DNA from: Streptomyces rapamycinicus NRRL 5491
Lineage (GTDB): Bacteria; Actinomycetota; Actinomycetes; Streptomycetales; Streptomycetaceae
DNA: 64,000 bases
NCBI RefSeq assembly: GCF_024298965.1
Contig: NZ_CP085193.1
Coordinates: 12,152,001 to 12,216,000, forward strand
Direction of reading: 5' to 3'
Within the stretch, counting starts at the first letter, position 1; each line of letters opens with the position of its first letter. Below are positions 9,790 to 37,900 of the stretch, piece after piece. Made by a program: the position numbers and the translations under genes. The notes beneath the pieces were generated by a model that did not search any database, was not told the origin of the DNA, and was given only the letters and a program-made list of their open reading frames with translations.

Positions 9790-9806
9790 TGAAAATGCTG
9801 TTTTCA
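9790..9806. promoter_or_regulatory. F420-set operator copy 1
   Basis: TGAAAAT-GCT-GTTTTCA, 6 of 7 arm positions paired. It lies 40 bases upstream of the amidohydrolase start, and the same palindrome recurs at 9926, 37785 and 37884. Confidence 0.6.
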
Positions 9807-9925
9807 ACGGTGCATGTCGACTCGCCACCTGTCAACGGCCTGCGGAGTGTCTTTGAAGTGGCACCCCAGGGCGAGGTCGGGTAGTACGCAAGCCTTTCGG
9901 CGGCCGGGTCGAAGGGTGGGGCTTG

Positions 9926-9942
9926 CGAAAATGACATTTTCG
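9926..9942. promoter_or_regulatory. F420-set operator copy 2
   Basis: CGAAAAT-GAC-ATTTTCG is a perfect 7-bp inverted repeat with a 3-bp centre, 120 bases from copy 1. Both lie in the 269-bp divergent intergenic region between the amidohydrolase and LLM genes. Confidence 0.65.
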
Positions 9943-9976
9943 ATCGACTTGAGGTCCAGCTGCGTGCTGACATAAA

Positions 9977-9987
9977 TAACTTCGTTA
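9977..9987 (+). promoter_or_regulatory. Operator-like site H before the first LLM gene
   Basis: TAAC-TTC-GTTA lies 33 bases before the GTG start. The surrounding 22 bases (9970-9991) match the site at 28311-28332 at 15 positions, including the flanks ACATA and AGCT. Confidence 0.45.
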
Positions 9988-10019
9988 GCTACGATGGATT
10001 GATCGAGTAAGGGAGCGCC

Positions 10020-10957
10020 GTGAGGTTCACTGTCGAACATCCGATCGGAAAGCCTGGCTGCGCGCCGGAGCTGTACGGGCCCGAGGGGCTGCGCGCGTTC
10101 GCCCGCGCGGCGGAGGAGGCGGGCTTTGACGCGATCGCGTTCACGGAGCACCCCGCGCCGTCGGGGAAGTGGCTCACCTCGGGGGGACACGCGACCCTCG
10201 ATCCGCTCGACGCCCTCGCCTATTGCGCCGCGGTCACGGATCGGCTGCGCCTGATGACCTATCTGATGGTGCTGCCGTATCACAGCCCGCTGATGGCGGC
10301 CAAGCGGATCGCCACCGTGGACCGGCTTTCCGGCGGTCGGCTGACGATCTGTGCCGGCGGGGGCTATCTGCGGTCGGAGTTCAACGCGCTCGGCGTGGAC
10401 TTCGAGCGGCGCGGTGAACTGTTCGACCAGGCACTCGAGGTGCTGCGGGACCTGTGGGCCGACGAGTCCTACACCGGCGAAGGGCTTCGGTACACCGCGC
10501 ATGGCACGGTGAGCACCCCCGGCCCTGTGCAGGTGCCTCATCCACCGTGTGGATCGGCGGCAACGGACGGAACGCACGGCGGCGGGCCGCCCGTGCGGCC
10601 CAGGGCTGGTCTCCTCTGCTCAACAGCGCCGGCATGGCGGCCACCACCCGGACCACGGCCCTGTCGACACCGGCCGACCTCGCGGCGGCTGTCGCGGAGT
10701 TGCGCCACTTCGCCGCCGAGGCCGGACGCGACCCGTCGTCCCTCGAGGTGCAGGTGCAGACGCCGCACAGTGACGTCCGCTCCGGAGCGGACGCTTACCT
10801 GCCCCGGCGCGATCACCTCGAGGAGCTCGCCGACGCCGGAGCCGGCTGGTTCGTCGTGCGTGTGCCTGGAAGCAGCCTGGACGAAGCCCTCGGGGCCTTG
10901 GAGCACTACGGACGTGAGGTGATCGCAAAGTGGCGGTCGGAGAGGAGCGGGCGATGA
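10020..10957 (+). CDS. LLM-class flavin/F420-dependent oxidoreductase (one frameshift)
   Basis: About 312 residues when joined. It starts MRFTVEHPIGKPGC from a GTG and has the LLM TIM-barrel features DAIAFTEHPAP, LRLMTYLMVLPYHSP, ATVDRLSGGRLTICAGGGYL and EFNALGVDF. Such enzymes use reduced F420 or FMNH2. The frame shifts near 10540, equal to one lost base, then continues WIGGNGRNARRRAARAAQGW to the stop. That stop overlaps the SDR start as ATGA, so the two are coupled. The genes for this protein and for an F420:NADP oxidoreductase at 37 kb share a palindromic upstream site, favouring F420 as cofactor. Confidence 0.82.
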
Positions 10958-11822
10958 CCTTCGAGTTGGGCCTCGACGGCAAGGCCGCGGTGGTGACCGG
11001 GGCGGGTGCGGGCATCGGTCAGGCCATCGCGGTCGCGCTGGCCGGGGCCGGTGTGCGGGTCGGGCTGGTCGACATCGACTTCCAGCGAGCCGAGGCAACG
11101 AGGGCGCTGGCCGAGAAGGCCGGGGTACGGCGATCTCCCTGGTGGCGGATGTGATGGACACCGCCGCGCTGACCGAAGCCGTCGCGGCCGCGCACCAGAC
11201 GTTCGGTCGACTGGACATCCTGGTCAACAACGCCGGTGGTGTGCGGGCCAGGCGTTTCCTGGACCAGAGCGAACGCAGCTGGCGCCGTCACATCGACATC
11301 AACCTGGTCGGCATGCTGGCGGCCACCTCGGCCGCCGCGCCGATGATCGCTTCCTCCGGAGGCGGTTCGATACTCAATATCACCAGCATCGAGGGTGAGC
11401 GTGCCGCTCCCATGTACGCGGTGTACGCCGCCTGCAAGGCCGGGATGATCAGCTTCACCCGGACCATGGCGGTCGAACTGGCCGAGCACCGGATCCGGGT
11501 GAACGCCCTGGCGCCCGACCACACCGCAACGGCCGGCAACCGGGGGATCCTGACAGGCCCGGTGGACCCGGGTGCCCTGCCGCCTCGCCCACCGGACCGC
11601 GAGGCAGCCGTCAGGCGCTACGTCCCGTTGGGCCGCGAGGGCGCCGCCGAGGAGTGCGCCGACGCGGCGGTGTACCTCTGTTCCGATCGCGCGGGCTATG
11701 TCACCGGTGTCACTCTCCACGTGGACGGTGGTACCGCCGCGGCAGGAGGCTGGGTGCGCTCGGGCGGCGGCTGGACCCTGTACCCCGACGCGGCACCTCT
11801 GACGGGGTGGGACGCAGGATGA
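10954..11822 (+). CDS. Short-chain dehydrogenase/reductase (one frameshift)
   Basis: A classical SDR of about 289 residues: TGAGAGIG cofactor loop near residue 17, LVNNAGG, ILNITSIEG with the catalytic Ser, and YAVYAACKAG with the catalytic Tyr and Lys. The tail VTGVTLHVDGGTAAAGG is typical, followed by an unusual 25-residue aromatic extension. One base appears lost near 11125 (AEKAG to ISLVADVMD). It is coupled to the preceding LLM gene by an ATGA overlap. It is likely to oxidise a hydroxy intermediate; substrate unknown. Confidence 0.82.
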
Positions 11823-11890
11823 CGGCCGGGTCGCCCTGGTGACCGGCACCGGCACCGGCTTCACGCGAACGCTCGGGCGGACACGGCGGA
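11819..11890 (+). pseudogene. N-terminal remnant of another SDR
   Basis: Just before the stop of the SDR gene a new ATG begins a frame which, after one base correction, reads GRVALVTGTGTGFTRTLG, the first strand and glycine loop of a second SDR. It runs out after about 25 residues into the convergent amidohydrolase gene. The rest is missing, so this is a truncated copy or rearrangement scar. Confidence 0.45.
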
Positions 11891-11946
11891 CCAGAGGACG
11901 CAGACGGCCGTAACTCGCGACGGCCCCGGTCGCCCCTGCTGTGCGG

Positions 11947-13353
11947 TCAGCGTCGGAAGACGGGCTTCCCCGCTCGCAGAACCAGCACCACCTGGTCGGC
12001 GGACGGCCTGGCCAAGGCCGCTTCGACGGGTTCGCCGAGCAGGCACAGGTCGGCCGGGCAGCCCGGTGCCACGCGCCGAGGAGGGCCGCCGGGGGAGTGC
12101 GGCGGGGACAGGAACCCGGCCAGAACCACCCCGGGGGCGACACGTTCGTGAGAGCCGAGCACTCTCCCCGATGGGGTCCGGCGGGACGCCGCGGCGGCCA
12201 TGGTGCGCCAAGGGTCCGGATCGCCGAAAGGGGCGTCGCTCGACGGCGCGGTCGGCACGCCGTGCGCCAGCAAGGTGGCGTAGGGATAGAGGTGTTCGGC
12301 ATCCCGGGGATCCACCGACGCCAGATAGGTGTCGCCCCGTGTGGCGATGAAGGAGGGCTGGGTCACGACCGTCAGCCTCTTGGCGGCCAATTGCTCGCAT
12401 ATTTCGGGCGGCACCACGGCCGCGTGCTCCACGCGATCGCCCTCGCGGGTTCCCACGATCTCCAGCGCGGCCAAGGTGAGCAGCAGGGATTCCCTCGTCA
12501 CGCAGTGGACCGCCACGGGACGCGCGGCCCGGTGCGGCCGGTCGATCAGGCCCGCCAACTCCTCGAGACCGGGAAGGTCGTGGTCGCGCAGCAAAATCTT
12601 GTACGGCCCACTGGACAGGCCGGGAGCGAGTGGTGCCCCGGTCGCGGCGCCCAGCAGCTGCACCGCCTGACACAGGCGGCCCCATGCACCGCGGTGGCGA
12701 TCAGGCCCAGACCTGCCGCGTCCAGGTCCGGCGTGGCATCCGTGACGCCGGTGATCCCGTACGAGGCCAACCGCTCGCCCACGGACGCCAGATCGGGCGG
12801 CTCGGCACCGATCGCCGCCCGCAGCCGGACGTCGTAGCGCCAGAGGCGGCCGGTCGGCTGTCCGGCCGCGTCCCGTTCGACGTCCAAGGAGTCGTCCAGC
12901 GCCGGAGCGACGGCCGCCAGCCCCGCGCTGTTGAGGATCCACAGTGCCCCGCCCCGGTGCTGGAGGCGCACCGGGCGGTCGGCGACCATGCCGTCCAGGG
13001 CGGTACGGTCCAGCAGGCCGGCCACCGACTCGCTGTACCGGTGCCGCGCACCCAGCCGCCCGGCGGAACCGCGTCTGCCGCCCCGCGCAGGACGGCACGC
13101 AGTCCGGCGGCGTCGTGCACGGCCGGTGGACCGCAGACGACGGACCGCTCCGCGGCGCCCATGGCGAGCAGGTGCGCATGATGGTCGTGGACCCTGGCAG
13201 CAACGCGCCCCCGCGCGCGTCCACGAGATCCTCGTCCCGCGCCGGGCGCAGCCGCTCCGCCACCTCGGCGACCCGTCCGTCACGTATCCGGACGTCGGTG
13301 AGGTGCCCGCCGGTGCGGCATCGCGCGATGAGCAGGTTCACGGACGGCACCAC
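11947..13353 (-). CDS. Amidohydrolase family 3 (YtcJ-like), frameshifted
   Basis: Joined over at least three frame changes, this is a metal-dependent amidohydrolase of about 470 residues. Its N-terminal beta-sandwich has LLIARCRTGGHLTDVRIRDG and ARGGALLPG, followed by the remains of the HDHHAH metal motif. Then come GVTDATPDLD, AVHCVTRESLLLTL and EHAAVVPPE, and the family's late motifs PSSDAPFGDPDPW and PADLCLLGEP. YtcJ-type enzymes hydrolyse N-acyl or carbamate bonds. The GTG start near 13353 lies within the end of the CoA-transferase gene upstream, so the two are probably coupled. The C-terminal 230 residues are in one clean frame. Confidence 0.7.
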   Translation of the reverse strand: MVPSVNLLIARCRTGGHLTDVRIRDGRVAEVAERLRPARDEDLVDARGGALLPGSTTIMRTCSPWAPRSGPSSAVHRPCTTPPDCVPSCAGRQTRFRRAAGCAAPVQRVGGRPAGPYRPGRHGRRPPGAPPAPGRGTVDPQQRGAGGRRSGAGRLLGRRTGRGRTADRPPLALRRPAAGGDRCRAARSGVRGRAVGLVRDHRRHGCHAGPGRGRSGPDRHRGAWGRLCQAVQLLGAATGAPLAPGLSSGPYKILLRDHDLPGLEELAGLIDRPHRAARPVAVHCVTRESLLLTLAALEIVGTREGDRVEHAAVVPPEICEQLAAKRLTVVTQPSFIATRGDTYLASVDPRDAEHLYPYATLLAHGVPTAPSSDAPFGDPDPWRTMAAAASRRTPSGRVLGSHERVAPGVVLAGFLSPPHSPGGPPRRVAPGCPADLCLLGEPVEAALARPSADQVVLVLRAGKPVFRR

Positions 13354-15046
13354 CGGGTGAGCACGCGTGCGGTGTCGGCTCCGGATTCCGGGCCCGCTGC
13401 CCCGGCCGTGGTGCGCGGGCGCGCGGACCGGGAAGACCTCGTGCTCCGCCCCCACCCACCAGCCGCCGTCCGGGCCCGCCGTACGGCGTGCGGTTCGGCG
13501 GGCCCCCGAGCGGCGAAGGCGGCGACATCCCGCATGGAGACGTCGATCAGGCAGCCTTGTTCCCCGGCGAGGGCCGCCGCCGTGGAGACCGCCGCGTGAC
13601 ACCGGTCAATGGTCCGCCAGGGGTCCCCGCAGGGCAGCGGCCCGTGCTCGGTCCGGACGACCAGACCCGCTCCGGCGGCGACGTCGTCCCCGAAGCCCAC
13701 ACGGTTCGCCCATGGTCCCGTCCGCCCGTACGCCGTGATGCTGGTCCACACCGTGCCCGAGGCCACGGCCTCCTCGGCGTCGATGCCGAGGTGCCGCAAC
13801 GCCCTGGGGCGCGAGGCCTCGAGAACGACGTCCGCCGATTCGACGAGCCGCCGCAGGGTGGCGACGCCGGCCGGTGAGGTGAGATCGAGGGAAACGGACG
13901 CATGCCCGGCGTGCAGGCGGTCGTAGAAAGCCGACGGGCCGAACCGGCGCCGTCGAGGCGGTGCGGGCTCTCGACCTTGACGATCTCCGCGCCGGTCAGG
14001 CCGAGCAGCGCGCGCACAGCGGGCCTGCCCACAGGGAGTGAGGTCGACCACGAGCGGGCGCCGCGCCGGTGCTTACGGGGCCGCCGCCGCGATCAGCACC
14101 GGCCTGGGGCCGGATCCGGCGGTCCCGCAGCGGTGCGCGGCCTGTCGTCCGGCATGCTGCCGGGCGTCACCGGTACCGTGGCCGCCGGGATGCCCAGCAG
14201 TTGGGCACGTTCGGCCACATCGACCGCCCTCCGGTCCGCAGACCAGCGTTCGAGCACCTCCCAGACGTCGGTTTCCACGGGGTGCTCGACGAGGGCGGCA
14301 ACGAGGTCGCGATCGGTCTCCCGGACAGTGAGACGCCTACCCAGCCGTCCACGGCGGACAGGATCCTGAAGGCACCGCCCGCCGACCACGGGCCGCGCCG
14401 GGACAGCCCCGCGATGGCCGCGCGCTCGCCCAGCAGCTCGGTCCCGGGCAGCCGGACAGCCTTTCCCGTCCGTGCCCGGCTCAATGCGGCGACCGCGTCG
14501 AGCGCGACGCGCAGTATGGCGGCCGGGGTTCCGGGGCCGCGAGCGGTGCCCCGTCGGGCAGTCCGGTCAGGGCCATCGCTCCCGAGCCGGCCCAGTCACG
14601 GAGCCCTCCTGCCGGGGGCCTTGCCCGCGGTCGTCGAGTAGAGCCGCCGCCGGAGCGCCGAACGCGGCGGCGAGCCACGAGGCCTGGTGGAGGGAGTCTC
14701 CGGGGGAAACGGGGGAAGGGGACTCCTCGCCTGCTGGATGGCCGAGGCGCGGTCGGATGTGGATGCGGGCATTGATGTCAGTCCCCACTGCGACGCTGTC
14801 TGCATCTCGCCGGGCCGCCCACGGCCGAAGACGGCTCGCGGTCCGGCAGGCGGCGGAAGGGCCACGCCGGACCGCCAGTCTACTGGCGTGTGCGGCCCGT
14901 CCGTCGTGCCGTCGAGGCATCCCGGGTCGGCCACCTTGTGCCGACCGTGGGCCATCAGCATGGGCCCGAGGGGCGTACGCAGGAGGAGGCCGCGGTGTCG
15001 CGGGCAGCGCGGTGATCGCCGTGGGGCGACGGGAAGGGTGGGGCAT
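13338..15046 (-). CDS. Large CaiB/BaiF-type CoA-transferase, probably two-domain (heavily frameshifted)
   Basis: Pieces in three frames assemble into a long CaiB-family protein. The N-terminal part has DWAGSGAMALTGLPDG, LLGERAAIAG, GGAFRILSAVDGWVGV and AQLLGIPAATVPV. The C-terminal part has TGAEIVKVESPHRLDG, FYDRLHAGHASVSLDL, GTVWTSITAYGRTGPW and AGLVVRTEHG. The order suggests a C-terminal-type domain fused before an N-terminal-type domain, as in di-domain CoA-transferases of about 500-800 residues. The likely ATG is at 15046. It is divergent from the metallo-hydrolase gene, with an operator-like site between them. The family moves CoA between carboxylic acids. The first 120 residues cannot be read confidently. 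Confidence 0.6.
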
Positions 15047-15081
15047 GAGTGCTCCTTGTTGGCTCACTGGGAGTGCTTCGA

Positions 15082-15104
15082 TGGTTTACTAGGTTGCCTA
15101 TGTT
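15082..15104. promoter_or_regulatory. Operator-like site C between the CoA-transferase and metallo-hydrolase genes
   Basis: The core TTACTAGGTTG lies 13 bases before the ATG at 15117 and 36 bases from the divergent start. Over 23 bases it matches site D (18453-18475, reverse strand) at 19 positions. Confidence 0.55.
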
Positions 15105-15116
15105 GAAAGAGGGGGC

Positions 15117-16171
15117 ATGTCCATGGACGGTGACCGGGTTTCCGGAACAGGGCGGCCGCCGAAGGGCGGCCGACCTCGCCTCACTCGTGTGCGGCCGGGG
15201 CTGTGGAGCCTTCCGATCCCGCTTCCGGGGCCTCTTGGGCATGTCCTGGTCTACGTACTGGAGACAGAAGCGGGCCCCTATCTGGTCGACGCGGGCTGGG
15301 ACACCGAGGAGGGCTGGAGCGCGCTGACCGCAGGGCTGCGGGCGCTCGGCACGCGGTCGAGGACGTCCGCGGCGTTCTGGTGACCCATTCCCACCTCGAT
15401 CACTACGGCCTCGCCCCGCGCATCCGGGAGGCGTCCGGTGCCTGGGTCCTTGCACGCGCTGGACGCCGCCGGTCTCGCGCGGTTCCGCGCCGATCCGGCC
15501 CTGCCGCTGGCAGCGCTGCTGCGCCGGGCCGGGGCGCCGGAGGCGGAGACGAGGAAGGCTCTCGACGACCTCGGAACGCGCTCCGGGCAGGACGCCCGCC
15601 CCCGGACCGTTACCTGGCCGACCGCGAGCGGCCCGACGTTCCCGGCTGGGATCTCACCACGCTGTGGACACCCGGCACACCCCGGGCCACCTCTGTTTCT
15701 GGGAGCCGCGTCACCGCTTGCTGCTGACCGGGGATCACCTGCTGCCGCGACCACCGTGGGATGCACCAGCCGAGGGACGAGACCGACGACCCCTTGGGGG
15801 GACTATCTGGAAACCCTGGAGCCGCTGGTGCGGATGGAGCCGGATCTCGTTCTGCCCGCCCACGAGTACCGCTATCCCGACATCGCGGCCCGCGTCGGCG
15901 AAGTGCGCGACCACCACGCGGCGCGCACGCTCTGGCGGTTTCGGTGCTGCGTGAGGGGCCCGTCACCGCATGGCAGCTGGCCGGGCGTCTGCGGCGCTCC
16001 GGCACCCTGGAGGGCTGCGGGCTTTCCGCTGCGTGCGACGGTCTCCGGGCGCTGGTGATCCTGGCCCACCTGCGCCGCCTCGGGCGCGCGCAGGAGGTGC
16101 CGGGCCCGCCGCCGCACTGGACGGCCACCGCGCGTCTCCAGCGTCGGGGGCCGGGCGTCTTCCCGGGCTGA
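15117..16171 (+). CDS. Metallo-beta-lactamase-fold hydrolase (frameshifted)
   Basis: Reassembled from several frames, about 350 residues. The N-terminus has LWSLPIPLPGPLGHVLVYVLE and PYLVDAGWDTEEGW. The metal motif is VLVTHSHLDHYG (15370-15405), with later ligands in HTPGHLCFW and LLTGDHLLP, and PDLVLPAHEYRY. The C-terminal REGPVTAWQLAGRL looks like the winged helix found in the LACTB2/BLACT subgroup. These are zinc hydrolases acting on thioesters, nucleic acids or lactones; in this island a thioesterase or lactonase role is plausible. At least four single-base losses are needed. The ATG at 15117 follows a GAAAGAGGGGG ribosome site. Confidence 0.72.
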
Positions 16172-16389
16172 GGAGCCGTCGGGCCGCTCTGTCACCCGTC
16201 GGGCCGCCGCATGACCGATCCGCCCGAGCAGTTCCCGCCTCCCGGCACGTCCCAGTCCTCCAGCACCTCGAGGCTGTGCGTGCCGGGCGCTGTCCGCGGT
16301 CCGGCGGCACGGGTCGCCGTGGCGGAGAAGCGGGGGCGCCGGGGCGGGGACGGCTTCTCCCTCGACGGTGACATGGACGTTCCGAGCCG

Positions 16390-17326
16390 TCATATGGGAT
16401 CGCGCAGGGCCTCCGACCAGTTGAGCACCGGCGTCACGCACGCGTCCGCCCCGTCGAAGACCTTCTCCCACTCGGCGCGCGGATGCGAGGCGAAGCGGGT
16501 GGCGAACGCCTCGCGCATCCGCGGCCACGCCGTACGGTCGTGTTGTGAGCCGGCCCATTCGGGCACGCCGAGCAACTCGACGAATCGTGCGTAGAACCGG
16601 GGCTCCAGCGCGCCCACGCTCATCCAGCCGCCGTCGGAGGTGGCGTACACGTCGTAGTAGGGGTGCCGGTGTCGAGCAGGTTGCGGCCGCGCTCGTCGGC
16701 CCACCCGCCGTGGCGGCGCTCGGCCCAGATCATCGCCGCGAGATGTGTGACACCGTCGACGATGGCCGCGTCCACGATCTGGCCCTCGCCGGTGGCGCGG
16801 GCGTGGTGCAGCGCGGCGAGCACTCCCACCACCAGGTAGAGCGCGCCGCCGCCGAAGTCGCCGAGAAGATTGAGCGGCACCTGGGCGGGCCGCCGGCCCG
16901 GCCGATCGCGGCCAGGGCACCGGTGAGGGAGATGTAGTTGATGTCGTGGCCCGCCGTGTCCGCCCGCGGGCCGTGCTGCCCCCAGCCGGTCATACGGCCG
17001 TAGACCAGGCGGGGTTGCGGGCGTGGGCGGCGGCCGGGCCGATGCCCAGACGTTCGGCGACGCCCGGCCGGAACCCTCGATGAGGATGTCCGCGCGCTCC
17101 GCGAGACGCAGCACCGTGTCCGCGCCGCCGGGTGCTTGAGGTCGATGATGATCGACCGGCGGCCCCGCTCCAGGAAGTCGGAGATGGGGGACGGTTCGGG
17201 ACGGTCCACGCGGACGACGTCGGCGCCGAGTTCGGAGAGCAGCAGCGAGGCCATGGGAGCCGGGCCGAGGCCGGCGATTTCGAGTACGCGCACTCCGGCG
17301 AGCGGGCCCTGCGCCGGGCCCGTCAC
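16390..17326 (-). CDS. CaiB/BaiF CoA-transferase, alpha-methylacyl-CoA racemase-like (frameshifted)
   Basis: The reassembled protein begins (GTG, 17326) with GPLAGVRVLEIAGLGPAPMA and LLSELGADVVRVDRP. It continues with the RRSIIIDLK strand, LVYGRMTGWGQHGP and the catalytic AGHDINYISLTGAL typical of alpha-methylacyl-CoA racemase. It ends with YYDVYATSDGGWMSVGALEP and CVTPVLNWSEALRD. The racemase inverts 2-methyl-branched acyl-CoAs so that stereospecific acyl-CoA dehydrogenases can use them. At least three frame corrections are required. The start lies 4 bases after the stop of the LLM gene on the same strand. A racemase supports a methyl-branched substrate. Confidence 0.8.
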
Positions 17327-17330
17327 GCGC

Positions 17331-18371
17331 TCAGCTCCCTCAGGGTGCTGACATCCCGGACGCGCCGCTGGTGTGTCGCGGCCAGCGGCTTGGCGTTGAG
17401 GGTGGTGGCACCGCTCTCGGCGAAGGCCGTGACGCGCTCCTTGACCCAGCCGGGCGGACCGATCAGGGAGACGCCGCGTACCAGTTCCTCGGGGACCGCC
17501 GCGGCCGCGTCCTCCCTGCGGCCGTCGAGGAAAAGGTCCTGGATCGTCGCGGCCGCTTCCTCGAAGCCGTACCGGCGGGTCAGGTCGTTGTAGAAGTTCC
17601 TGCCCTTGCCTCCATGCCGCCGACGTACAGGGCCAGATGCTCGCGCACCTGCTGTTCGGCGGCCGTGCGCTCCTCGGCGTTCTCGGTGATCGCGACATGC
17701 GTGTCGACGATGGTGTCGAGCGGAGCCAGTTCGGGGGCGCGGCGGGCCGCGCCCGAGTCCAGGGACTCGCCGAACGCGGCTCGCGCGCCTCGGGGAAGTA
17801 GAAGATCGGTTCCCAGCCCTCGAACAGTTCGGCGGCCAGGGCGACGTTCTTCGGACCGAGCGCCGCCAGGACCATGGGAACGCGTGCGCGCACCGGGTGG
17901 TTGATCAGCTTGAGCGCCTTGCCCAGGCCCGACCCACCGTGCACCCGGCTCAGGGGCAGCTGGTAGCGCGGTCCGTCGTGCACGACCGGCTCGCGGCTCC
18001 ACACCTTGCGGCAGATCTCCGTCACCTCCCGGGTACGGGCGAGAGGGGCGTCGTACGGCAGGCCGTGGAAGCCCTCGACGACCTGCGGGCCGGAGGCGCC
18101 GATCCCCAGTGTGAATCGGCCGCCCGAGACGTAGTCGAGGCCGGCCGCCGTCATGGCGAGCAGCGACGGTGTGCGGAGTAGATGTTGAGGATGCCCGAGG
18201 CGATGCCGAGGCTGCTCGTCCGCGCGGCCAGGTAGCCGAGCTGGCTCACCGAGTCGAAGCTGTACGCCTCCGGGACGAAGACGATGTCGAGCCCCGCTTT
18301 CTCGTAGTCGACCAGTTCGCCGACTGTCTCGGCGAACCCCCGCTGTAGGCCATCGGCATTCCGATCCGCAT
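17331..18371 (-). CDS. LLM-class F420-dependent oxidoreductase (frameshifted)
   Basis: Starts MRIGMPMAYS at 18371. Family features are LVDYEKAGLDIVFVPEAYSF, SRTPSLLAMTAAGLDYVSGG, RFTLGIGASGPQVVEGFHG, REVTEICRKVW, VPMVLAALGPKNVALAAELF and EGWEPIFYFP. This pattern resembles the LLM subgroup around mycobacterial Rv3520c, which lies in the cholesterol-degradation region. At least three single-base losses interrupt it (near 18345, 18180 and 17780), plus more near the C-terminus. It forms an operon with the racemase-like gene downstream and is divergent from the thiolase gene. Confidence 0.8.
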
Positions 18372-18452
18372 GTCACCGGTCCTTTCACACGTCATCCGGA
18401 CATCTGGCCGCCGGGCCGCGACTGCGGTGTGAAGCAGACCAGCCCTGGAGAC

Positions 18453-18475
18453 ATCATAGGTGACCTAGTAAACTA
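18453..18475. promoter_or_regulatory. Operator-like site D between the LLM and thiolase genes
   Basis: The reverse strand reads TTTACTAGGTCACC and is a 19/23 match to site C. It lies 34 bases before the thiolase ATG and 82 bases from the divergent LLM start. Confidence 0.55.
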
Positions 18476-18508
18476 ACCTACAGTTGTTGTGGTGAAGGAG
18501 GCTGCCAT

Positions 18509-19674: not shown

Positions 19675-19747
19675 CGGTGCCGGCGACGGTCCTCCGTGCG
19701 TGAACGGAGGGTGATCTCACCGTGCCATGCCCATGGGGCTGTTCCAT

Positions 19748-24451: not shown

Positions 24452-24458
24452 CGATGCC

Positions 24459-28299: not shown

Positions 28300-28310
28300 C
28301 CGAACAATCA

Positions 28311-28332
28311 ACATAGTTTACTAAGTAAGCTG
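28311..28332 (+). promoter_or_regulatory. Operator-like site G before the SDR/crotonase operon
   Basis: Contains the perfect odd palindrome TTACT-A-AGTAA (28318-28328), the cleanest of the set. It lies 53 bases before the ATG at 28385, after the end of the ANL gene. An AGGAGGT ribosome site lies at 28374-28380. Confidence 0.6.
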
Positions 28333-28384
28333 TCGGGGGGGTAAGATAACCAGGCAATAGCTCCCCTGCTTTCAGGAGGTCTCC

Positions 28385-29146: not shown

Positions 29147-29168
29147 CTTCTGAAGGAGACCCCGAGCA

Positions 29169-29932
29169 ATGCCCGACGAGGTACTGGTGGAGCACGCCGA
29201 CGGCGTCACGCTCATCACCATCAACCGGCCCGAGGCCCGCAACGCCGTCAACCGCGCTGTCAGTGAAGGCGTCGCCGCGGCCCTGGACGAGTTCGAGTCC
29301 CGCAGGGACCTGACGGCCGCCGTCATCACCGGTGCGGGCGGCAGCTTCTGTTCCGGCATGGACCTGAAGGCGTTCGTGGCCGGTGAGACGGTGGCCCTGG
29401 AAGGCCGAGGCTTCGCCGGTATCACCAGGAGGCCCCCGCGCAAACCCGTGATCGCCGCGGTCGAGGGATACGCCCTGGCCGGTGGCTGCGAGATCGTCCT
29501 CGCCTGCGACCTGGTCGTGGCCGCCGAGGACGCCAGGTTCGGCATTCCCGAGGTCAAGCGCGGTCTGGTGGCCGGAGCAGGCGGGCTGCTGCGGCTGCCG
29601 AGGCGGATCCCCTATGCCGTCGCCATGGAACTCGCCCTCACCGGTGACTTCCTCCAAGCCGCACAGGCTCACCGCTACGGCCTGGTGAACAGGGTGACCG
29701 AGCCCGGCAGGGCCCTGGAAGGAGCCCGGGAGCTCGCGGCGCGCATCGCCGCCAACGGACCGCTGGCGGTCGCCGCCACCAAGGAGATCATCGTCCGCTC
29801 GGCCGACTGGTCCGCCGACGAGGCGTTCGACAGACAGGCCGTGATCATGACCCCCGTGTTGCAGTCCGCCGACGCGCGCGAGGCGCGATCGCGTTCGCGG
29901 AGAAGCGCCCGCCGGTGTGGCGGGGCGAGTAG
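29169..29932 (+). CDS. Enoyl-CoA hydratase/isomerase (C-terminal frameshift)
   Basis: A full-length crotonase of about 254 residues: ITINRPEARNAVNRAVSEG, GAGGSFCSGMDLKAF (first oxyanion hole), VEGYALAGGCEIVLACDLVV and FGIPEVKRGLVAGAGGLLRL (catalytic region). After one lost base near 29883 the tail reads AIAFAEKRPPVWRGE and stops at 29930-29932. It lies 22 bases after one SDR gene and 29 bases before another, with a GAAGGAGA ribosome site. It probably hydrates the enoyl-CoA made by one of the neighbouring dehydrogenases. Confidence 0.87.
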
Positions 29933-29961
29933 ACAATCCGACTCTGAGACGAGGAGCAGCA

Positions 29962-30732
29962 GTGGAGCTGGCTGGTGGAGTCGCCCTGGTCACGGGCGGT
30001 GCGGGCGGACTCGGCGAGGCTACGGTACGGCGTCTCGCGGCTGCCGGGGCCAAGGTCGTCATCGGCGACCTCGCCGATGAACGCGGCGAGGCGCTCGCCA
30101 AGGAACTCGGTGCTCACGCGGTCTTCGCCCGGACCGATGTGACCGACGAGGACAGCGTTCTGGCGGCGCTCGACGTCGCACGGAGTCTGGGCGAGTTGAG
30201 GATTGCCGTCAGCACGCACGGCGGTCCGGTCGCTCACGCCCGCGTACTGGACCGGGAGGGCGACCCGTACGCCCTCGACCTGTTCAAACGCACCCTGGAC
30301 GTGTACCTCACCGGCACGTTCAACGTGCTGCGTCTGTCGGCTGCGGCGATGGCGAAGAACACGCCGAACGGGTCCGGCACCCGTGGCGTGGTGGTCAACA
30401 CAGCCAGCATCGCCGCCTTCGAGGGCCAGATCGGCCAGTCCGACTACGCCGCGGCCAAGAGCGGGGTCGTCGGCCTCGGCCTCGCCGCCGCTCGCGACCT
30501 GGCGGCGGTCGGCATCCGCGTCATGACCATCGCGCCGGGCACCTTCTTCACGCCCGCCTTCCGCATCCCCGAGGAGCAGGCGCAGGAGACCTGGGGCTCC
30601 AAGGTGCCGTTCCCGAAGCGTATGGGGCGGCCGGAGGAGTACGGGGCCCTGGTCCAGCACATCGCCGAGAACGACTACCTCAACGGCGAAGTGATCCGTA
30701 TCGACGGCGCTCTGCGCTTCGGCCCCAAGTGA
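29962..30732 (+). CDS. SDR, type-II 3-hydroxyacyl-CoA dehydrogenase-like
   Basis: An intact 256-residue paralogue of the 28385 SDR. Start GTG 29962 (MELAGGVALVTGGAGGLGEA) with a GAGGAGCA ribosome site. NAD-binding TGGAGGLG and IGDLADERG, catalytic NTASIAAFEGQIGQSDYAAA followed by KSG, and VGIRVMTIAPGTFFTPAF. The two paralogues flank the crotonase, so each may serve a different beta-oxidation cycle. Its stop overlaps a possible GTG start of the next dehydrogenase gene. Confidence 0.9.
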   Translation: MELAGGVALVTGGAGGLGEATVRRLAAAGAKVVIGDLADERGEALAKELGAHAVFARTDVTDEDSVLAALDVARSLGELRIAVSTHGGPVAHARVLDREGDPYALDLFKRTLDVYLTGTFNVLRLSAAAMAKNTPNGSGTRGVVVNTASIAAFEGQIGQSDYAAAKSGVVGLGLAAARDLAAVGIRVMTIAPGTFFTPAFRIPEEQAQETWGSKVPFPKRMGRPEEYGALVQHIAENDYLNGEVIRIDGALRFGPK

Positions 30733-30746
30733 CGAAGGCGACGACG

Positions 30747-31848
30747 ATGAGTACGGCAGCCGAAGAACTCCGGGCCCACCTCGACGAGATCGCCCCCGGC
30801 CTGCACCGCGCCTGGCCGGACAACCGCTCCTTCGAGGCCCGCCTCGCCTGGCAGCGCGCTCTGCACGAGGGCGGCTGGGCCGCCCCGCACTGGCCCGTCG
30901 AGGACGGCGGCCGCGGCCTCGGCATCCTGGACCGCCTGGAGTGCGACGCAGAACTCGCCCGCGTCGACGCCCCGGCCATCGCCGGAGTCTTCGGCATCAA
31001 GAACGTCGGCCCCACCATCTCCCGCTTCGGCACCCCCGGACAGCGCGCCTCACTTCCCCGGATCCTGTCCACGGAGGAGATCTGGTGCCAGGGCTTCAGC
31101 GAGCCCGACGCGGGCAGCGATCTCGCGTCCTTGCGCACACGGCGGAGCCCGACGGGGAGGGCTTCCGCATCAATGGGCAGAAGGTGTGGACATCGGACGG
31201 CATGCGGGCCACCCACTGCGTACTCCTGGCGCGCACGGACCCCGAGGCCCGGCCGCACCAGGGCATCTCGGTCCTGCTCGTACCGCTGGACACACCCGGC
31301 ATCGAACGTCGTCCCCTGCGCCAGATCACGGGCGACTACGAGTTCGCCGAGCTGTTCTTCACCGACGTGCACGTCCCGGCGGGCGCCCTGCTCGGCCCGC
31401 TCAACGAGGGCTGGCGTGTCACCATGACCACACTCGGCCACGAGCGGGCGGGCGTCGTCGAACTCGCCAACTCCCTGCAGCGGGAGGTGAAGGGAGCGGT
31501 GTCCGGCTTCCCGGACGGAGTGGCCGACCCCGTGCTGCGTCAGGAGCTGGCCCGGCGTTACGTCGAGGCCCGCGCACTCGGCCTGCTCGGCCGGGATGTG
31601 CTGGACGCCCTCAGCGCGGGAGCACAACCCGGCCCCGCCCAGTCCGTCATCAAACTCGGCTGGAGCCTGACCACGCAGCGTCTCAGCGAGACCCTGCTGG
31701 ACGCGGCGGGCCCCTCCGCCATCGCGGGCGGGGACGGCCCCGACGTCTACCGCTATCTGCGGGACGGTCTTCGACCATCGCCGCGGGCACCACCGAGATC
31801 ATGAAGAACATCCTGGCCGAACGCGTCCTCGGCCTGCCGAAGGGATGA
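30747..31848 (+). CDS. Acyl-CoA dehydrogenase, alpha-type subunit (set 2; two frameshifts)
   Basis: About 367 residues. It starts MSTAAEELRAHLDEIAPGL, with a possible extended GTG start at 30729. Then EIWCQGFSEPDAGSDLASL, FRINGQKVWTSDGMRATHC, FAELFFTDVHVPAGALLG, TTLGHERAGVV and STIAAGTTEIMKNILAERVL. One base is lost near 31137 and one near 31770. Its stop overlaps the ATG of the next dehydrogenase gene (31845). It has the SEPDAGSD loop but not the FGRPIGxFQ/IHGGIGFTWEHD region, which is in the overlapping neighbour. Confidence 0.87.
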
Positions 31849-32988
31849 GCGCCGTGAGCGACCGGAACGACGGGCACGAGGAACTCCGCAAGGCCGTCCG
31901 TGCCTTCCTGAACAACGCCTCGCCGAGCAGCGAGGTACGACGGCTGATGGCGACCGCCGAGGGATACGATCCCGACGTCTGGCGCCGCCTCGCGGACGAG
32001 CTGGGTCTGGTCGGCCTGATCGTCCCCGAACGCTTCGGAGGGGCCGGTGCGGGCGCCGCCGAACTCGCGGTCGTCATGGCTGAGATGGGCCGCACGCTGC
32101 TGTGCTCCCCGTACCTCTCCTCGGCGGTGCTCGCGCCGGCCGTGCTCCTGGAGAGCGGTGACGAGGCGGCGTGCGCCGAGCTTCTCCCGGGCATCGCGGA
32201 CGGCTCGACCCTGGGGACCCTCGCGGTGGCCGAGGACAACGCGGATATCCGCGACTTCGACGCCATACGGACGACAGCGCGGGCCGACGGAGACCGATAC
32301 CTGGTCCACGGCACCAAGGAGCGGGTCAGCGACGGATGTACGGCGGGGCTACTGCTGACCGTCGCACGCACGGACAAGGGCCTCTCGCTCTTCGCCGCCG
32401 AGCCGGAAGGGGCGGAGCGCGAGCCGCTGCCCGCGCTCGACCCCACCCGCAAGCTGGCCCGAGTCGACTTCGACGGGACACCCGCCCGGCTGATCGGTGC
32501 CGAGGGCGCGGCCGCAGCCGCTCTCGGCAGAGCGCTCGACCTGGGGACTGTCGCGCTCGCCGCCGAACAGGCGGGTGGTGCGGAGCGGTGCCTGGAGCTG
32601 TCCGTGGAGTACGCGAAGACACGGGAGCAGTTCGGGCGACCGATCGGCGCCTTTCAGGCGATCAAGCATAAGTGCGCCGAACTGCTCCACGAAGTGGAGT
32701 CGGCGAAAGCGGCTGCGCGGGACGCGGCGCGCCTGTGGTCGGATCCGACCACGGGGAACAGGGGCTGGCCGCGTCGGTCGCGGGGGCCTACTGCTCCGAG
32801 GCGTACGTCCACGCCGCCGCCGAAACCATCCAGATCCACGGCGGCATCGGCTTCACCTGGGAACACGACGCCCATCTCTACCTGCGCCGGGCCAGGTCCT
32901 CGGCGCTGCTCCTCGGCAGTACCTCCTGGCACCTCGAAAGGGTTGCCGAGGACATCGGCCTCGTCCCACCGCATGACCCCCGCCGTGA
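31845..32988 (+). CDS. Acyl-CoA dehydrogenase, beta-type subunit (set 2; frameshifted end)
   Basis: About 380 residues from ATG 31845 (MSAVSDRNDGHEELRKAVRA). Mid-protein it has TLAVAEDNADIRDF where alpha chains have SEPDAGSD. The C-terminal part has YAKTREQFGRPIGAFQAIKH and IHGGIGFTWEHDAHLYLRR. One base is lost near 32755; a second loss near 32980 would give the stop at 32986-32988, 23 bases before the next ATG. The open frame otherwise runs on into the next gene by chance, which should not be read as a fusion. The ATGA overlap with its partner gene supports a 1:1 complex. Confidence 0.85.
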
Positions 32989-33011
32989 CCCATCGACCCC
33001 AAGGAGGCCCG

Positions 33012-34195
33012 ATGCCCAGCGCCACGGCTCAGGACACCGGCACGCCCCCCGCGCGCCGAGCGCACTGGAGCGTGCGACTCGCGGAGTTCCTGGACGCCCA
33101 CGCGGGCAGGCCACCCCGCGACAAGACCGAGCGCCTGGCCTGGGCCCGTGCCTTCCACGCCGAGCTGCAGGAGACCGGCCTCGCCGCGCCCGGCTGGCCG
33201 ACCGAGGACGGTGGCATGGGGCTGGACCTGGCCGACCAGATCGCCTACCACCAGCGGATGACGGCCGCCAGGGCTCCCAAGCACCCCTGCGGGCTGTCGT
33301 TCATCGTGGCACCCACGCTCATCAAACACGGCACCCCTGAGCAGAAGAAGCGGTTTCTGCGGCCACTGCTGCGCGCCGACGAGTTCTGGTGCCAGGGCTT
33401 CTCCGAGCCGGACGCAGGCAGCGACCTCACCTCGCTGACCACACGCGCCGAACGCGCCGGCGACGAGTACATCGTCAACGGACAGAAGCTCTGGACCACC
33501 ATGGCCCACCTGGCCGACTGGATGTTCGCCCTGATCCGCACGGGCCCCGCCGGACCCGGCGGAGCCGGGATCTCCTACCTGCTCATCCCCATGAAGAGCC
33601 AGGGCATCACCGTACGTCCCCTGAAGGACATCAGTGGCGGCACACACTTCTCCGAGGTGTACTTCGACGACGTGCGCGTGCCCGTGGAGAACCTGGTGGG
33701 GGAGGAGAACGGAGGCTGGGCCATCGCCCGCACCAGTCTGGGCCACGAGCGCGCCACCGCGTTTCTCTCCGACGAATTCCGCTTCCGGCGAGTCGTCGAC
33801 GAACTGCACCGGCTCGCCAAGACCTCGGGCGCCGCGAACGACCCTCTCGTGCGGCAGGATCTGGCCAGGATCGAGGCATCGGTGCGGGTTCTCGCCTCCA
33901 ACAGCCGACGAGCCCTCGACGCCGTGCTCCAGGGGCGGGACCCCGGCCCCGCGGCCTCGGTCAACCGGCTGGTCCGCGCCGAGTTCGACCAGCGCCTGCA
34001 CGAGGTCGCGCTGCGGGTGCTCGGACCCGACGCCGTGCTGGGCCAGCGTGAGCCGACCGCACCGGAAGGCGGACGGTGGACCTACGGATATCTGATGAGC
34101 CGCTCCTCGACCATCGGGGCCGGCACCGCGGAGATCCAGCGCAACGCCATCGCCGAGAGGGTCCTGGGATTGCCCTCGGGAGGAAGCAAGCATGA
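33012..34195 (+). CDS. Acyl-CoA dehydrogenase, alpha-type subunit (set 3)
   Basis: About 394 residues, almost entirely in one clean frame. It starts at ATG 33012 behind a perfect AAGGAGG (33001-33007). It has EFWCQGFSEPDAGSDLTSL, YIVNGQKLWTTMAHLADWMF, FSEVYFDDVRVPVENLVGEE, TSLGHERAT and STIGAGTAEIQRNAIAERVL. One lost base near 34185 would give the natural TGA at 34193-34195, overlapping the next ATG (34192). GxxEIxRN and the WCQGFSEPDAGSDL loop are normal, so this chain carries a full FAD/substrate loop. Confidence 0.88.
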
Positions 34196-34999
34196 CGACC
34201 CCACCACCGGGCACGAGCGGGCTGCCGGACTTCCGCACGATCCTCGCCGAACTGGGCGAGGACCACGTCCTGACGGTGACGCTCAACCGTCCCGAGAGGC
34301 TGAACGCGTTCAACCAGCAGACCCTGGACGACTTCTCCGCCCTGTGGCGGTACGCGGCCGAGGAGGACGCCGTTCACGTTGTGGTCCTCCAGGCGGAGGG
34401 CGAGCGGGCCTTCTGTACCGGCGTCGACGTGGTGGAGGGCATCGACCGGCACAGCAACCCCTTCAGCGACCTTGATCCGGGCACCAGCCTGTCGCCCAAG
34501 CTGAACCGCTGCTGGAAGCCCCTCGTCTGCGCGGTCCACGGCATGGTGGCCGGCGGGGCCCTCTACTGGCTGAACGAAGCCGACATCATCATCGCCGACG
34601 AGGACGCCATGTTCTTCGACCCGCACACCACATACGGCATGGTCGCGGCCCTGGAGCCGATCGGGCTCGCCCGCCGCATCCCGATCGGGAAGTGCTGCGG
34701 ATGGTGCTGCTCGGCAACGACGAGCGGATGTCGGCCCGCCGGGCGTACGAGATCGGCTTCGTCAGCGAGGTCGTCGAGCGGACTCGGCTGAGGCAGCGGG
34801 CGCACGAACTGGCCGCGCTGATCGCGGCGAAGCCGCCCGTCGCGGTCCAGGGGAGCGTGAAGGCGATCTGGGAATCCTGGACACCGGACGAAGCCAGGCG
34901 CTGGCAGCGGGCCTCGCCTACACCCAGATCGGCAACCCGATCGGCAAGGCCCAGATCGACCGCGAGGCTGCCAGGAACCGGAAGTATGAGGTGCGCTGA
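34192..34999 (+). CDS. Enoyl-CoA hydratase/isomerase (frameshifted)
   Basis: About 270 residues starting MTTPPPGTSGLPDFRTILAE. Crotonase features: VTLNRPERLNAFNQQTL, GERAFCTGVDVVEG, VCAVHGMVAGGALYWLNEAD and FFDPHTTYGMVAALEPIGL. One base is lost near 34690 and another near 34910, after which QIGNPIGKAQIDREAARNRK leads to the TGA at 34997-34999, overlapping the next start (TGATG). The D-P-H-T-T-Y-G segment replaces the more usual FGLPE/FGxPE motif, so its activity may differ from a standard hydratase. Confidence 0.83.
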
Positions 35000-36099
35000 T
35001 GACCGCCGACGCGGAGACCGAGAAGGAACTGCGCGAGACGCTGGGCGGACTGCTGCGCCGGCGCTGCGACATCGAGACGGTGGCCGCCCTGGCCGACGGG
35101 CCCGAGAGCTGGCACCGGGACTTGTGGCGGGAGCTCGTGGCCATGGGTGTGCCCGGACTGACGGTCCCGGAAGAGAACGGGGGAGAAGGCGCCGGCTTCT
35201 CACTCGCGGTCGCCGCGCAGGAGGAGCTGGGGCGCCGACTCGCGCCGGTGCCCATGGTGTCGGTGGTCGCCGCCCAGGCCGCGCTGGTGGCGTCGGGACC
35301 GACGAGGCCGCGCGGTTGCTGGCCCACATCGGGAGCGAGGGCGTGACGGCCACGCTCGCCGTCGGACGCACCACTGACGGCTGGACCCCGGCCGGAGGGG
35401 TGCTCGCCGTGGAGGGTTCCGCGGGATGGACCCTGGACGGAACCGTTCCGGTGGTCGCCGACGCGCCGTGCGCTGCCGTGTTCCTGGTCGCGGCGGAGAC
35501 CGGCGTGGGCCCCGCTCTCTTCGCCGTGGAACCGCGGGACCGCTGCGTGACGACGCCTGTGGATGCCCTGGACCCGACCCGTCCACTGGGTGCCGTCGAA
35601 CTGACGGCCTGTCCGGCCCGGTTGGTGGCCGCCCCCGATGCCTTCGACGACGTACTTCGCTCCGCCGAACGTGCCGCACTGGTCCTGCTGGCCGCGGATG
35701 CCGTGGGGTCGCCGCGGAAGCGATGGACCTCGCTGTGGAGTACGCCGGGACCAGGCAGCAGTTCGGCCGTGCCATCGGTTCCTTCCAGGCCGTCTCGCAC
35801 CGCTGCGCGAACATGCTCGTCGCCGTCGAGTCGGCACGAGCCCTGGTCGCCGCCGCGGCCGGGGCACTCGACGAGCTCGGCCCGGACACCGACACCGCGG
35901 TGTGCCTGGCTGCCGCCGAGGCGCTGGAGACAGCGGTCTTCGTCGTGCAGGGCTGCCTCCAGGTGCACGGGGCATGGGCTTCACCTGGGAGCACCCCGCC
36001 CACCGCTATCTGCGCCGCGCCAAAGCCGCCGAAGCGCTGGTCGCGCTGCCGGATCGGCTGCGGGAGCGGGCCGCGACCGGCATGCTCCCGGCTGTGTAG
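34999..36099 (+). CDS. Acyl-CoA dehydrogenase, beta-type subunit (set 3; frameshifted)
   Basis: About 368 residues. It starts MTADAETEKELRETLGGLLR and has LWRELVAMGVPGLTVPEENG and ATLAVGRTTDGWTPAG at the position of the SEPxAGSD loop. C-terminally it has YAGTRQQFGRAIGSFQAVSH, LQVHG, then MGFTWEHPAHRYLRRAK. Three single-base losses are needed (near 35300, 35712 and 35972). It completes the third alpha/beta set with the 33012 gene, the crotonase gene lying between. It ends the operon; a 12-bp hairpin follows. Confidence 0.86.
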
Positions 36100-36102
36100 G
36101 CC

Positions 36103-36135
36103 ACGGTGTCCCGCCACGCCGTCGCGGGACACCGT
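36103..36135 (+). terminator. Hairpin terminator after the acyl-CoA dehydrogenase operon
   Basis: ACGGTGTCCCGC (36103-36114) pairs perfectly with GCGGGACACCGT (36124-36135) around a 9-base loop, directly after the stop codon. Confidence 0.7.
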
Positions 36136-36324
36136 ACGTATCAGGGGTATCTCAGGGGTATCCGTGCGCTCGGCGAGCACTCACGCCCATCTTGAAGAGC
36201 CCCCGTCGGCGCCCTGGCGCGGAGGTGGCCGGCCCGGCGCCCGCCCGCCGCCGCGGAGGCTGGTCACGGTTACCCTGGTCATCCCGCGTTTTCGTGTGGG
36301 GCAGCCGGAGAGGAGACCGCGCCC

Positions 36325-36947
36325 GTGCCGACGGAGTCTGCTGAGCGTGAGCGGATCATCAAGGCGGCCTACCGCTGCCTGGCCGAGGCGGGAGGCGCAG
36401 GCGCTTCGGTGGGCGAGATCCTGCGCACCGCCGGGTTGGGAACACGAGCGTTCTATCGGCATTTCGACTCCAAGGACGATCTGCTCCTCGCCATGTTCCG
36501 GCGGGACAGCGAGCGGCTGCTGACCGAGCTTCAGAGCGCCGCGGCGAGTGCGGCCACCCCCGTAGAGGCGCTGCAGGGCTGGGTCGAGGCGATGCTGCGC
36601 CTGACGTCAGAGGCGCGCCGGCGCCAGCACGTGCGGATTCTCTCCTCCGAGGGAGCCCAGCGCACCGCGGGCTACGCCGCGGAGCGGCCCGGGTGGCGGC
36701 GGGGCAGGAGGCCGCTCTGGCACAGATCCTGCACCGAGGGCGCCGGGACGGCTCGCTCCCGTGGGCCGAGCCCGAGTCCGACGCCAGGTTCATCCGGGCC
36801 GTCATCGCGCAGGCGTTCGACGAGCAGATGGCGCCGACCGCGTCCATGAGCGCGACCGAGGCCGCCGCCCGTGTGCGCGACTTCGTGCTGAGAGCGCTCG
36901 GAGCGACGACAACGGTTGCGGCGGCAGGCCGACAGGAGCGGCCCTGA
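36325..36947 (+). CDS. TetR-family transcriptional regulator (one frameshift)
   Basis: About 207 residues, GTG start MPTESAERERIIKAAYRCLA. The helix-turn-helix is GASVGEILRTAGLGTRAFYRHF at residues 30-50; the rest is the all-helical ligand domain. One base is lost near 36690. It lies between the dehydrogenase operon and the convergent F420:NADP oxidoreductase gene. It is a candidate for binding the GAAAAY-NNN-RTTTTC palindromes found 0.85 kb away and at 9.8 kb, since symmetric short-spaced palindromes are typical TetR targets. It could instead recognise the ACTnAGT sites. Confidence 0.82.
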
Positions 36948-36951
36948 CGGT

Positions 36952-37688
36952 CTATACGTCGGTGACCCGGAGCCCGGCGTGTGCCTTGTAGCGCCGGTTG
37001 ACCGAGATCAGGTTGGCGACCAGTGACTCGACCTGGTGGGCGCCCCGAAGCCGGCCCGCGTAGATACCGCGCATGCCTGGGATGCGGCCGGCGAGCGCCT
37101 GCACGATCTCCACGTCGGCCCGCTCCTCGCCGAGCACCATCACGTCGGTGTCGATCTCGTCGATGTCCGGGTCCTGGAGCAGGACCGCCGAGAGGTGGTG
37201 GAAGGCGGCGGTGACCCGGGATTCCGGCAGCAGCGCGGCGGCCTGCTGGGCGGCGCTGCCCTCCGCCGGCTCAAGGGCGTAGGCACCCTTCTTGTCGAAG
37301 CCGAGCGGGTTGACGCAGTCGACGACGAGCTTGCCGGTCAGCTCCTCGCGCAGCGCCTCGAGCGCCTTGCCATGACCGTCCCACGGCACGGCGACGATCA
37401 CGATGTCACTGCGCTGCGCACACTCGGCGTTGTCGGCGCCCTCGACGCCGTGCCCGAGTTCCCCGGCGGCGGCCCGGGCGCGCCCGGCCGCCCGCGAGCC
37501 GATGATCACCTTCTGGCCCGCCTTGGCCAGCCGGTAGGCCAGGCCCTTGCCCTGCGGTCCGGTCCCGCCGAGAACGCCGACGATCAGGCCGGAGACGTCG
37601 GGGAGGTCCCGGGGGTCCTTGGCAGGCGCCTTGGCGAGTTCCTCGGGGCGGTGTCGGCGGATCCGGTGGTGTTTGGTTTGGTGCTCAC
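36952..37688 (-). CDS. fno: NADPH-dependent F420 reductase (F420:NADP oxidoreductase), one frameshift
   Basis: About 245 residues from GTG 37688. The NADP-binding motif is VGVLGGTGPQGKGLAYRLAK, followed by VIIGSRAAGRARAAA, SDIVIVAVPWDGH, VVDCVNPLGFDKKGAY and VTAAFHHLSAVLL, all typical of NPDR/Fno. It reduces F420 with NADPH and so feeds F420H2-dependent LLM enzymes. One base is lost near 37650. Two GAAAAY-NNN-RTTTTC palindromes lie in its 371-bp upstream region, shared with the divergent DUF2889 gene. The same palindrome occurs at the first LLM gene. Confidence 0.88.
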
Positions 37689-37784
37689 GAGTGATTGCCT
37701 CTCATACGGCGGTCACGGGACGGGGACGCGGCGACGTGCACAGCTCTTGACGCACTGTTCAGGCCGCGGTCAGACGCATTCTAG

Positions 37785-37801
37785 CGAAAACGATGTTTTC
37801 G
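37785..37801. promoter_or_regulatory. F420-set operator copy 3
   Basis: CGAAAAC-GAT-GTTTTCG, perfect; the pairing extends one more base each side (37784-37802). It lies 97 bases upstream of the fno start. Confidence 0.65.
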
Positions 37802-37883
37802 CATCGGTCGTCGCGCCCTGGGAGCGGCGCTGCCGCTGGAACGAGCGCCGATGGTTGACAGGCGCGCGATTCGATCCAAAGAT

Positions 37884-37900
37884 TGAAAATAATGTTTTCG
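37884..37900. promoter_or_regulatory. F420-set operator copy 4
   Basis: TGAAAAT-AAT-GTTTTCG, with the GAAAA/TTTTC core paired. It lies 99 bases from copy 3, close to the 136-base centre spacing of copies 1 and 2. The 371-bp region 37689-38059 otherwise holds no gene. Confidence 0.6.

Follow-up and report, generated by a model that had tools for sequence, protein, structure and literature searches.

Four palindromes as probable TetR operators at PtmU3-type oxygenase and DUF2889 genes of Streptomyces rapamycinicus, with counterparts in related actinobacteria

Four palindromes in two divergent intergenic regions

The window analysed here is a stretch of 64,000 nucleotides of Streptomyces rapamycinicus NRRL 5491 (contig NZ_CP085193.1, positions 12,152,001 to 12,216,000), in which two divergent intergenic regions each carry two copies of one palindrome. 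The first region separates a gene for a protein of 377 amino acids (aa), which we class by its sequence as a PtmU3-type dinuclear oxygenase of the amidohydrolase superfamily (8617..9750, minus strand), from a gene for an LLM oxidoreductase of the F420-dependent Rv2161c-type family (10020..10957, plus strand; frame split near 10535). The second separates fno/npdG, encoding an NADPH-dependent F420 reductase (36952..37644, minus strand), from a gene for a DUF2889 protein of 357 aa (38060..39133, plus strand). Beside fno a TetR-family regulator is encoded (36325..36944, plus strand), its frame split in the assembly into overlapping matches at 36325-36744 and 36651-36944, and beside the oxygenase gene lies that of a conserved 68-aa protein (8407..8613, minus strand). 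Gene calls were made via a codon-usage script, so start codons, including that of fno, are approximate. We consider it probable that the four palindromes are operators of a single ligand-released repressor, the product of the TetR gene at 36325, and that the oxygenase and DUF2889 genes form the core of its regulon.

The pattern GAAAAYNNNRTTTTC occurs four times in the window, as 15-mers at 9791-9805, 9927-9941, 37786-37800 and 37885-37899. An earlier note on this DNA had placed the palindromes correctly, with centre spacings of 136 and 99 and both pairs between divergent genes; a sequence check also confirmed its perfect 7-bp arms, which belong to the sites at 9926-9942 and 37785-37801 and not to the other two. 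Operator 1 (TGAAAATGCTGTTTTCA, 9790..9806) directly follows the proposed -10 box of the oxygenase gene, operator 2 (CGAAAATGACATTTTCG, 9926..9942) lies on the LLM side, operator 3 (CGAAAACGATGTTTTCG, 37785..37801) lies on the fno side, and operator 4 (TGAAAATAATGTTTTCG, 37884..37900) directly follows the proposed -10 box of the DUF2889 gene. Dinucleotide shuffles of the window never contained the pattern (0/100), and with up to two mismatches allowed the window still held just these four palindromes. The genome-wide scan that the earlier note had proposed returned the same four places as the only exact matches in 12,466,108 bp, and none for the reversed control pattern. Allowing one mismatch added four further places (control: two, over the whole genome). 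The chance of four random sites all falling inside the 28.1-kb span is 4.6e-8.

The palindrome in relatives of the TetR gene

The intact TetR orthologue of S. iranensis DSM 41954 has an N-terminal TetR_N domain (PF00440, 47.5 bits against a cut-off of 24). On a Frankia contig (L098) a TetR gene related to that of the window (57% over 112 residues) is followed by a 75% homologue of the oxygenase with TGTGAAAAACACGTTTTCACA between them, the sole place with at most one mismatch in that Frankia genome. The L098 TetR, aligned with the intact S. iranensis protein, served to collect further relatives, and the loci of the best 80 of 225, from named genomes, made up a TetR-related set; sites were counted over all 80, with tblastn as a check. 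TGAAAANNNNNTTTTCA was found there 11 times perfectly and 8 times with one mismatch, the reversed pattern 0 and 0 times. In 15 of the 80 loci a DUF2889 protein (at least 58% identity) or an oxygenase (at least 81%) related to the proteins of locus L118 is encoded, and all 15, which include S. iranensis (itself part of the query) and three loci from one genome (L125-L127), have TGAAAA-N5-TTTTCA with at most one mismatch. The conservation check proposed in the earlier note thus came out in favour of the palindrome. The sites of these 15 loci are intergenic and stand before DUF2889, oxygenase, double CoA-transferase or fno genes. Two of the remaining 65 loci (L174 and L187) also match within one mismatch. 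In the site-bearing loci of the set the TetR gene is adjacent or within a few kb.

Relatives of the window TetR co-occur with the palindrome in Frankia, Actinomadura, Amycolatopsis, Pseudonocardia, Mycolicibacterium, a metagenome-assembled genome of Streptosporangiaceae and other Streptomyces. Since they do so in several genera, the TetR at 36325 is the best candidate for the reader of the sites; the earlier suggestion of one regulator, perhaps this one, gains support in this way, and the sites appear to mark a TetR regulon conserved in several actinobacterial genera. Pooling 27 sites gave TGAAAA-[Y/A]-G-N-C-[R/T]-TTTTCA. The rule first given for them, GAAAAY-NNN-RTTTTC, fits the window sites, and its Y and R are too narrow for the pooled set. 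Because fit to the palindrome was the criterion for pooling, conservation of the arms is a product of that selection, which did not bear on the inner G and C or on where the -35 box lies.

Searches irrespective of TetR placed a limit on the group. A class-wide search for DUF2889 covered 394 genomes, 43 of them with a match at 1e-40, and 30 loci were examined. All six loci of at least 61% identity had a site in the 400 bp preceding the match (the window and five from the genus of Frankia QA3, one of which was already in the TetR-related set), and none of the 24 loci at 42-56% identity had a site with at most one mismatch. Across 392 genomes of the window's own genus, the next DUF2889 relatives after S. 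iranensis (47, 40 and 32%) came from genomes with no exact site.

Sixteen genomes were searched whole (those of 14 loci, the window's own and S. iranensis), and 28 exact GAAAA-N5-TTTTC places were found in nine of them (control: 4). We attribute 18 of these 28 to the gene set, counting two that precede LLM genes from another sub-family. Such other LLM genes have one site in A. madurae and in Amycolatopsis GM8, and in both genomes sites stand away from the TetR gene, yet before DUF2889, oxygenase or LLM genes.

Two close relatives show how the locus may have changed. In S. iranensis operators 1, 2 and 4 are unchanged, with many changes in the DNA between operators 1 and 2, and there is no counterpart of about 36988-37863, which holds fno and operator 3. 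In S. fuscichromogenes (L122, L212) the order is TetR, fno, site, a double CoA-transferase-III gene, site, DUF2889; elsewhere in that genome stand the LLM gene, two sites 101 bp apart, the oxygenase gene and the 68-aa gene, and its exact sites genome-wide all fall at this gene set (4/4). Its DNA is collinear with window positions 36228-37810 and 38058-39066, and 2,677 bp replaces the window's 247 bp. Operator 3 matches the operator that precedes the S. fuscichromogenes double CoA-transferase gene. The close spacing (99 bp) of the fno and DUF2889 sites would be explained most simply by loss, in the window lineage, of a CoA-transferase gene from between two operators. Its gain in the S. fuscichromogenes lineage is less favoured, because double CoA-transferase genes lie near TetR in Frankia, Actinomadura and others.

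Promoter geometry and rival readings

For 29 site-gene pairs, TTGAC was sought in the 45 nt before the operator. It was found 28-32 nt before the operator in 8/8 oxygenase and 12/12 DUF2889 promoters tallied, and at that distance on the opposite side in none. Given a 17-nt spacer and a -10 box of 6 nt, the operator begins where the -10 box ends or directly beside that point, and in all 20 of these promoters a palindromic operator overlaps the promoter. In the window the proposed oxygenase -35 box, TTGACA (9830..9835, minus strand), lies 29 nt before operator 1 and is kept in S. iranensis and S. fuscichromogenes; the proposed -10 box, CACCGT (9807..9812, minus strand), follows it by 17 nt and is identical in both species. 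The proposed DUF2889 boxes are TTGACA (37855..37860, plus strand), 29 nt before operator 4, and AAAGAT (37878..37883, plus strand), which abuts operator 4. An operator abutting the -10 box suggests steric repression.

Several observations weigh against a single TetR switch for this gene set. The nine fno, CoA-transferase and LLM pairs are off the pattern and fail to show the operator-promoter overlap (TTGAC at 38-39 in 3/9, none in 6/9), the S. iranensis DUF2889 promoter, which stood outside the tally, has no TTGACA, and the TetR gene's own promoter in the window has no such site. A class-wide oxygenase search irrespective of TetR covered 345 genomes, 22 with a match at 1e-80, and among the 30 loci examined a site within one mismatch stands only at the window and Frankia L069; the site therefore marks a sub-group and not the whole oxygenase family. 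Seven of the 16 genomes searched whole have no exact site. Six of these seven hold a TetR-relative locus outside the site group, and the TetR of the seventh, Frankia tisae, falls inside the Frankia site clade. On a tree of 39 of the 81 TetRs the site label needs 6 changes (12.1 in shuffles, 0/500 as low), a label that appears clustered, yet with more than one gain or loss. Some exact matches fall at unrelated places: one S. iranensis site lies between two tRNA genes, and a scan of 199 genomes of the genus found matches in 16, four in the window's own genome and 16 places in the other 15 together, none with more than two. Fifteen of these 16 places were inspected; one (L010) is at the same gene set, and the remaining 14 have no regulon gene within about 1.5 kb, two of them with a 32% GntR match beside the site. 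Finally, the frame of the window TetR is split.

The unrelated places would suit a chance cluster or a repeat element with no regulatory role. We regard this as extremely improbable, since shuffles never reproduced the pattern, all four sites are confined to 28 kb with differing flanks, and both their place and the -35 geometry are conserved across genera.

The sites could also be read by another regulator, either the FadR-type GntR encoded at 7522 or one encoded elsewhere, with the TetR gene a mere neighbour. The split TetR frame speaks for such a reader, and so does the presence of the GntR gene near the oxygenase gene in the window and in S. fuscichromogenes. However, two site-free Frankia loci (L099, L100) keep the oxygenase, thiolase and DUF35 genes and a 33% GntR relative without the palindrome, while in L098, L114, L117, L118 and others the palindrome occurs beside a TetR gene, no GntR gene intervening; the GntR/thiolase intergenic region of the window has no such site either. 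The site-free Frankia loci in particular make GntR 7522 an unlikely reader, and we think it doubtful that any regulator other than the TetR reads the sites.

A further alternative is that the circuit is decaying in this strain: with TetR a pseudogene and the CoA-transferase gene lost, the sites would be relics that nothing reads. A TetR split over two frames is what decay predicts, and the collinear S. fuscichromogenes DNA has its double CoA-transferase gene just where the window has 247 bp. We compared window positions 30729-41042 with S. iranensis, asking for 17 genes, of which 14 were matched. Seven of the 14 are split over frames, including TetR, ETF and several dehydrogenases, and because the splits are this widespread we prefer assembly indels, the probable cause of the split frames, over decay of TetR only. 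The S. iranensis TetR is moreover intact and its three operators are unchanged. Decay is slightly less credible still than a different reader.

Gene products and a possible pathway

Against solved structures the oxygenase matched PtmU3 best (E 5.9e-119, residues 1-374), followed by DitZ (5e-25). ACMSDs (6e-11) rank behind these and others, and the label of an ACMSD-like hydrolase given in the earlier note is withdrawn; the former amidohydrolase would be a PtmU3-type dinuclear oxygenase. All PtmU3-type metal ligands (D, H, H, E, D, H, E) are present in the window protein and conserved in 12/12 aligned proteins. The available text of PMC7782822 lists the metal ligands of AibH2, names an extra acidic ligand of PtmU3, and presents PtmU3 as a diterpenoid-biosynthetic hydroxylase able to use CoA-linked substrates; in that of PMC10811679, AibH2 relatives are described with a Rieske protein. 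The window protein thus resembles PtmU3 of platensimycin biosynthesis, which belongs to the dinuclear oxygenases with AibH2 and SfbO, over its whole length and in its metal-ligand residues, but unlike PtmU3 it stands in a catabolic gene neighbourhood with DUF2889 and the 68-aa protein.

The 68-aa protein has invariant Cys and His residues and follows the oxygenase or, in Frankia, DUF2889. None of its 86 homologues bears a function name, and the Frankia copy had no Pfam or NCBIfam match. A confident model of DUF2889 predicts two similar halves; no convincing solved relative was found for the protein, the model gave no informative fold match, and no function for it was found in the available text of the literature searched. 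A NifU/SufU-like scaffold was rejected (hhalign probability 0.4 against ten SufU/NifU sequences). DUF2889 gains a genomic and probable regulatory partner here in the PtmU3-type oxygenase.

The earlier note had described an F420 mini-regulon, which is partly borne out. The window fno matches TIGR01915 (256 bits against a cut-off of 149.8), one of four npdG-family members over the cut-off in this genome (two in S. fuscichromogenes, one in S. iranensis), and both the split LLM of the window and its intact counterpart in S. fuscichromogenes match a family named F420-dependent. Within this Streptomyces group the fno and LLM sites hold: the LLM orthologue has sites in all three genomes (window, S. 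iranensis, S. fuscichromogenes), and a site at fno occurs only in those of the window and S. fuscichromogenes, S. iranensis being without this fno. Across the relatives fno is not in the regulon. The conserved core targets appear to be the oxygenase, its 68-aa neighbour and DUF2889, and we therefore move the core of the regulon from F420 supply to the PtmU3-type oxygenase and DUF2889, most likely under one TetR repressor.

The rarity, conservation and position of the sites, the promoter geometry and the gene families can be read from the sequence. We infer that a TetR dimer would bind the pooled consensus, which in the oxygenase and DUF2889 promoters immediately follows the -10 box, and would block the start of transcription until released by a ligand, probably an acid or CoA ester of the pathway. 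In this Streptomyces group fno and the F420-dependent LLM oxidoreductase would have been added to the core set. The set probably serves to break down a CoA-linked cyclic acid: the oxygenase would hydroxylate the CoA ester and a nearby Ltp2/ChsH2-like pair would cleave it by retro-aldol reaction. This candidate pair, a ChsH2-type DUF35 protein and a lipid-transfer-type thiolase (5628..7258, minus strand), has no operator before it. It resembles the steroid side-chain retro-aldolases Ltp2/ChsH2 (Sal/Shy), as far as the available descriptions go, in combining a ChsH2-type zinc-ribbon/OB protein with a lipid-transfer-type thiolase, but a domain search found no MaoC domain in the window DUF35 protein. 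More speculatively, and with little probability in our view, DUF2889 and the 68-aa Cys/His protein could be dedicated partners of the oxygenase in electron transfer, metal loading or product handling, with the oxygenase acting on CoA esters and, in this Streptomyces group, drawing reducing power from F420H2 by way of the co-regulated fno and LLM proteins, all under one TetR switch.

KstR, KstR2 and Mce3R, TetR repressors of actinobacterial lipid and steroid catabolism, are alike in having a TetR_N domain and a palindromic operator at CoA-linked catabolic genes. Among solved TetRs the window protein has weak sequence similarity to KstR2 and Mce3R, but its best solved matches reach only E 1e-8 and no NCBIfam cut-off was reached. 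The operators of KstR and KstR2 appear to differ from TGAAAA-N5-TTTTCA. In the literature searched, which left subscription papers mostly outside, nothing was found on this regulon and no paper combined TetR, F420, regulon, operator and amidohydrolase; PMC9301340, in its available text, concerns another mycobacterial TetR. The 17-bp matrix with its fixed promoter geometry could locate genes of the pathway in other actinobacteria, and the releasing ligand of the TetR would give a clue to the pathway substrate.

Some minor features of the window and of related loci were also recorded. A short-chain dehydrogenase gene (10930..11822, plus strand; split in the assembly) follows the LLM gene, as it does in S. 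fuscichromogenes. Between operator 2 and the LLM start, CTAACGAAGTTA at 9977-9988 lies in DNA that is also conserved in S. iranensis and in S. fuscichromogenes; it may be the site of another regulator. The GntR/thiolase intergenic region (7259-7555) shares the palindrome GATAGCTATC with S. fuscichromogenes, a candidate GntR site. A second double CoA-transferase gene lies beside the S. fuscichromogenes oxygenase gene, and more distant oxygenase homologues (58-59%) from Amycolatopsis GM8 and A. madurae likewise have such genes as neighbours (set L208, L209, L211, L212). Two oxygenase homologues of another genus (69-71%; L076, L078) carry, next to a TTGACA box just before the match, a palindrome of another type whose arms are TTAGAA and TTCTAA, which suggests that this kind of gene has a different regulator there. 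The one Actinomadura physcomitrii genome that holds L125, L126 and L127 has three TetR/CoA-transferase/DUF2889/oxygenase sets on different contigs, with a common TGAATATAGATTCTTCA palindrome before another gene. In three mycobacterial TetR relatives (L154:1929, L159:8924, L174:8924) a diverged palindrome, TGAGATnGGCrTTTTCA, lies 76-77 bp upstream of the start of the matched TetR; it adjoins a divergent gene, which in L174 is alpha/beta-hydrolase-like.

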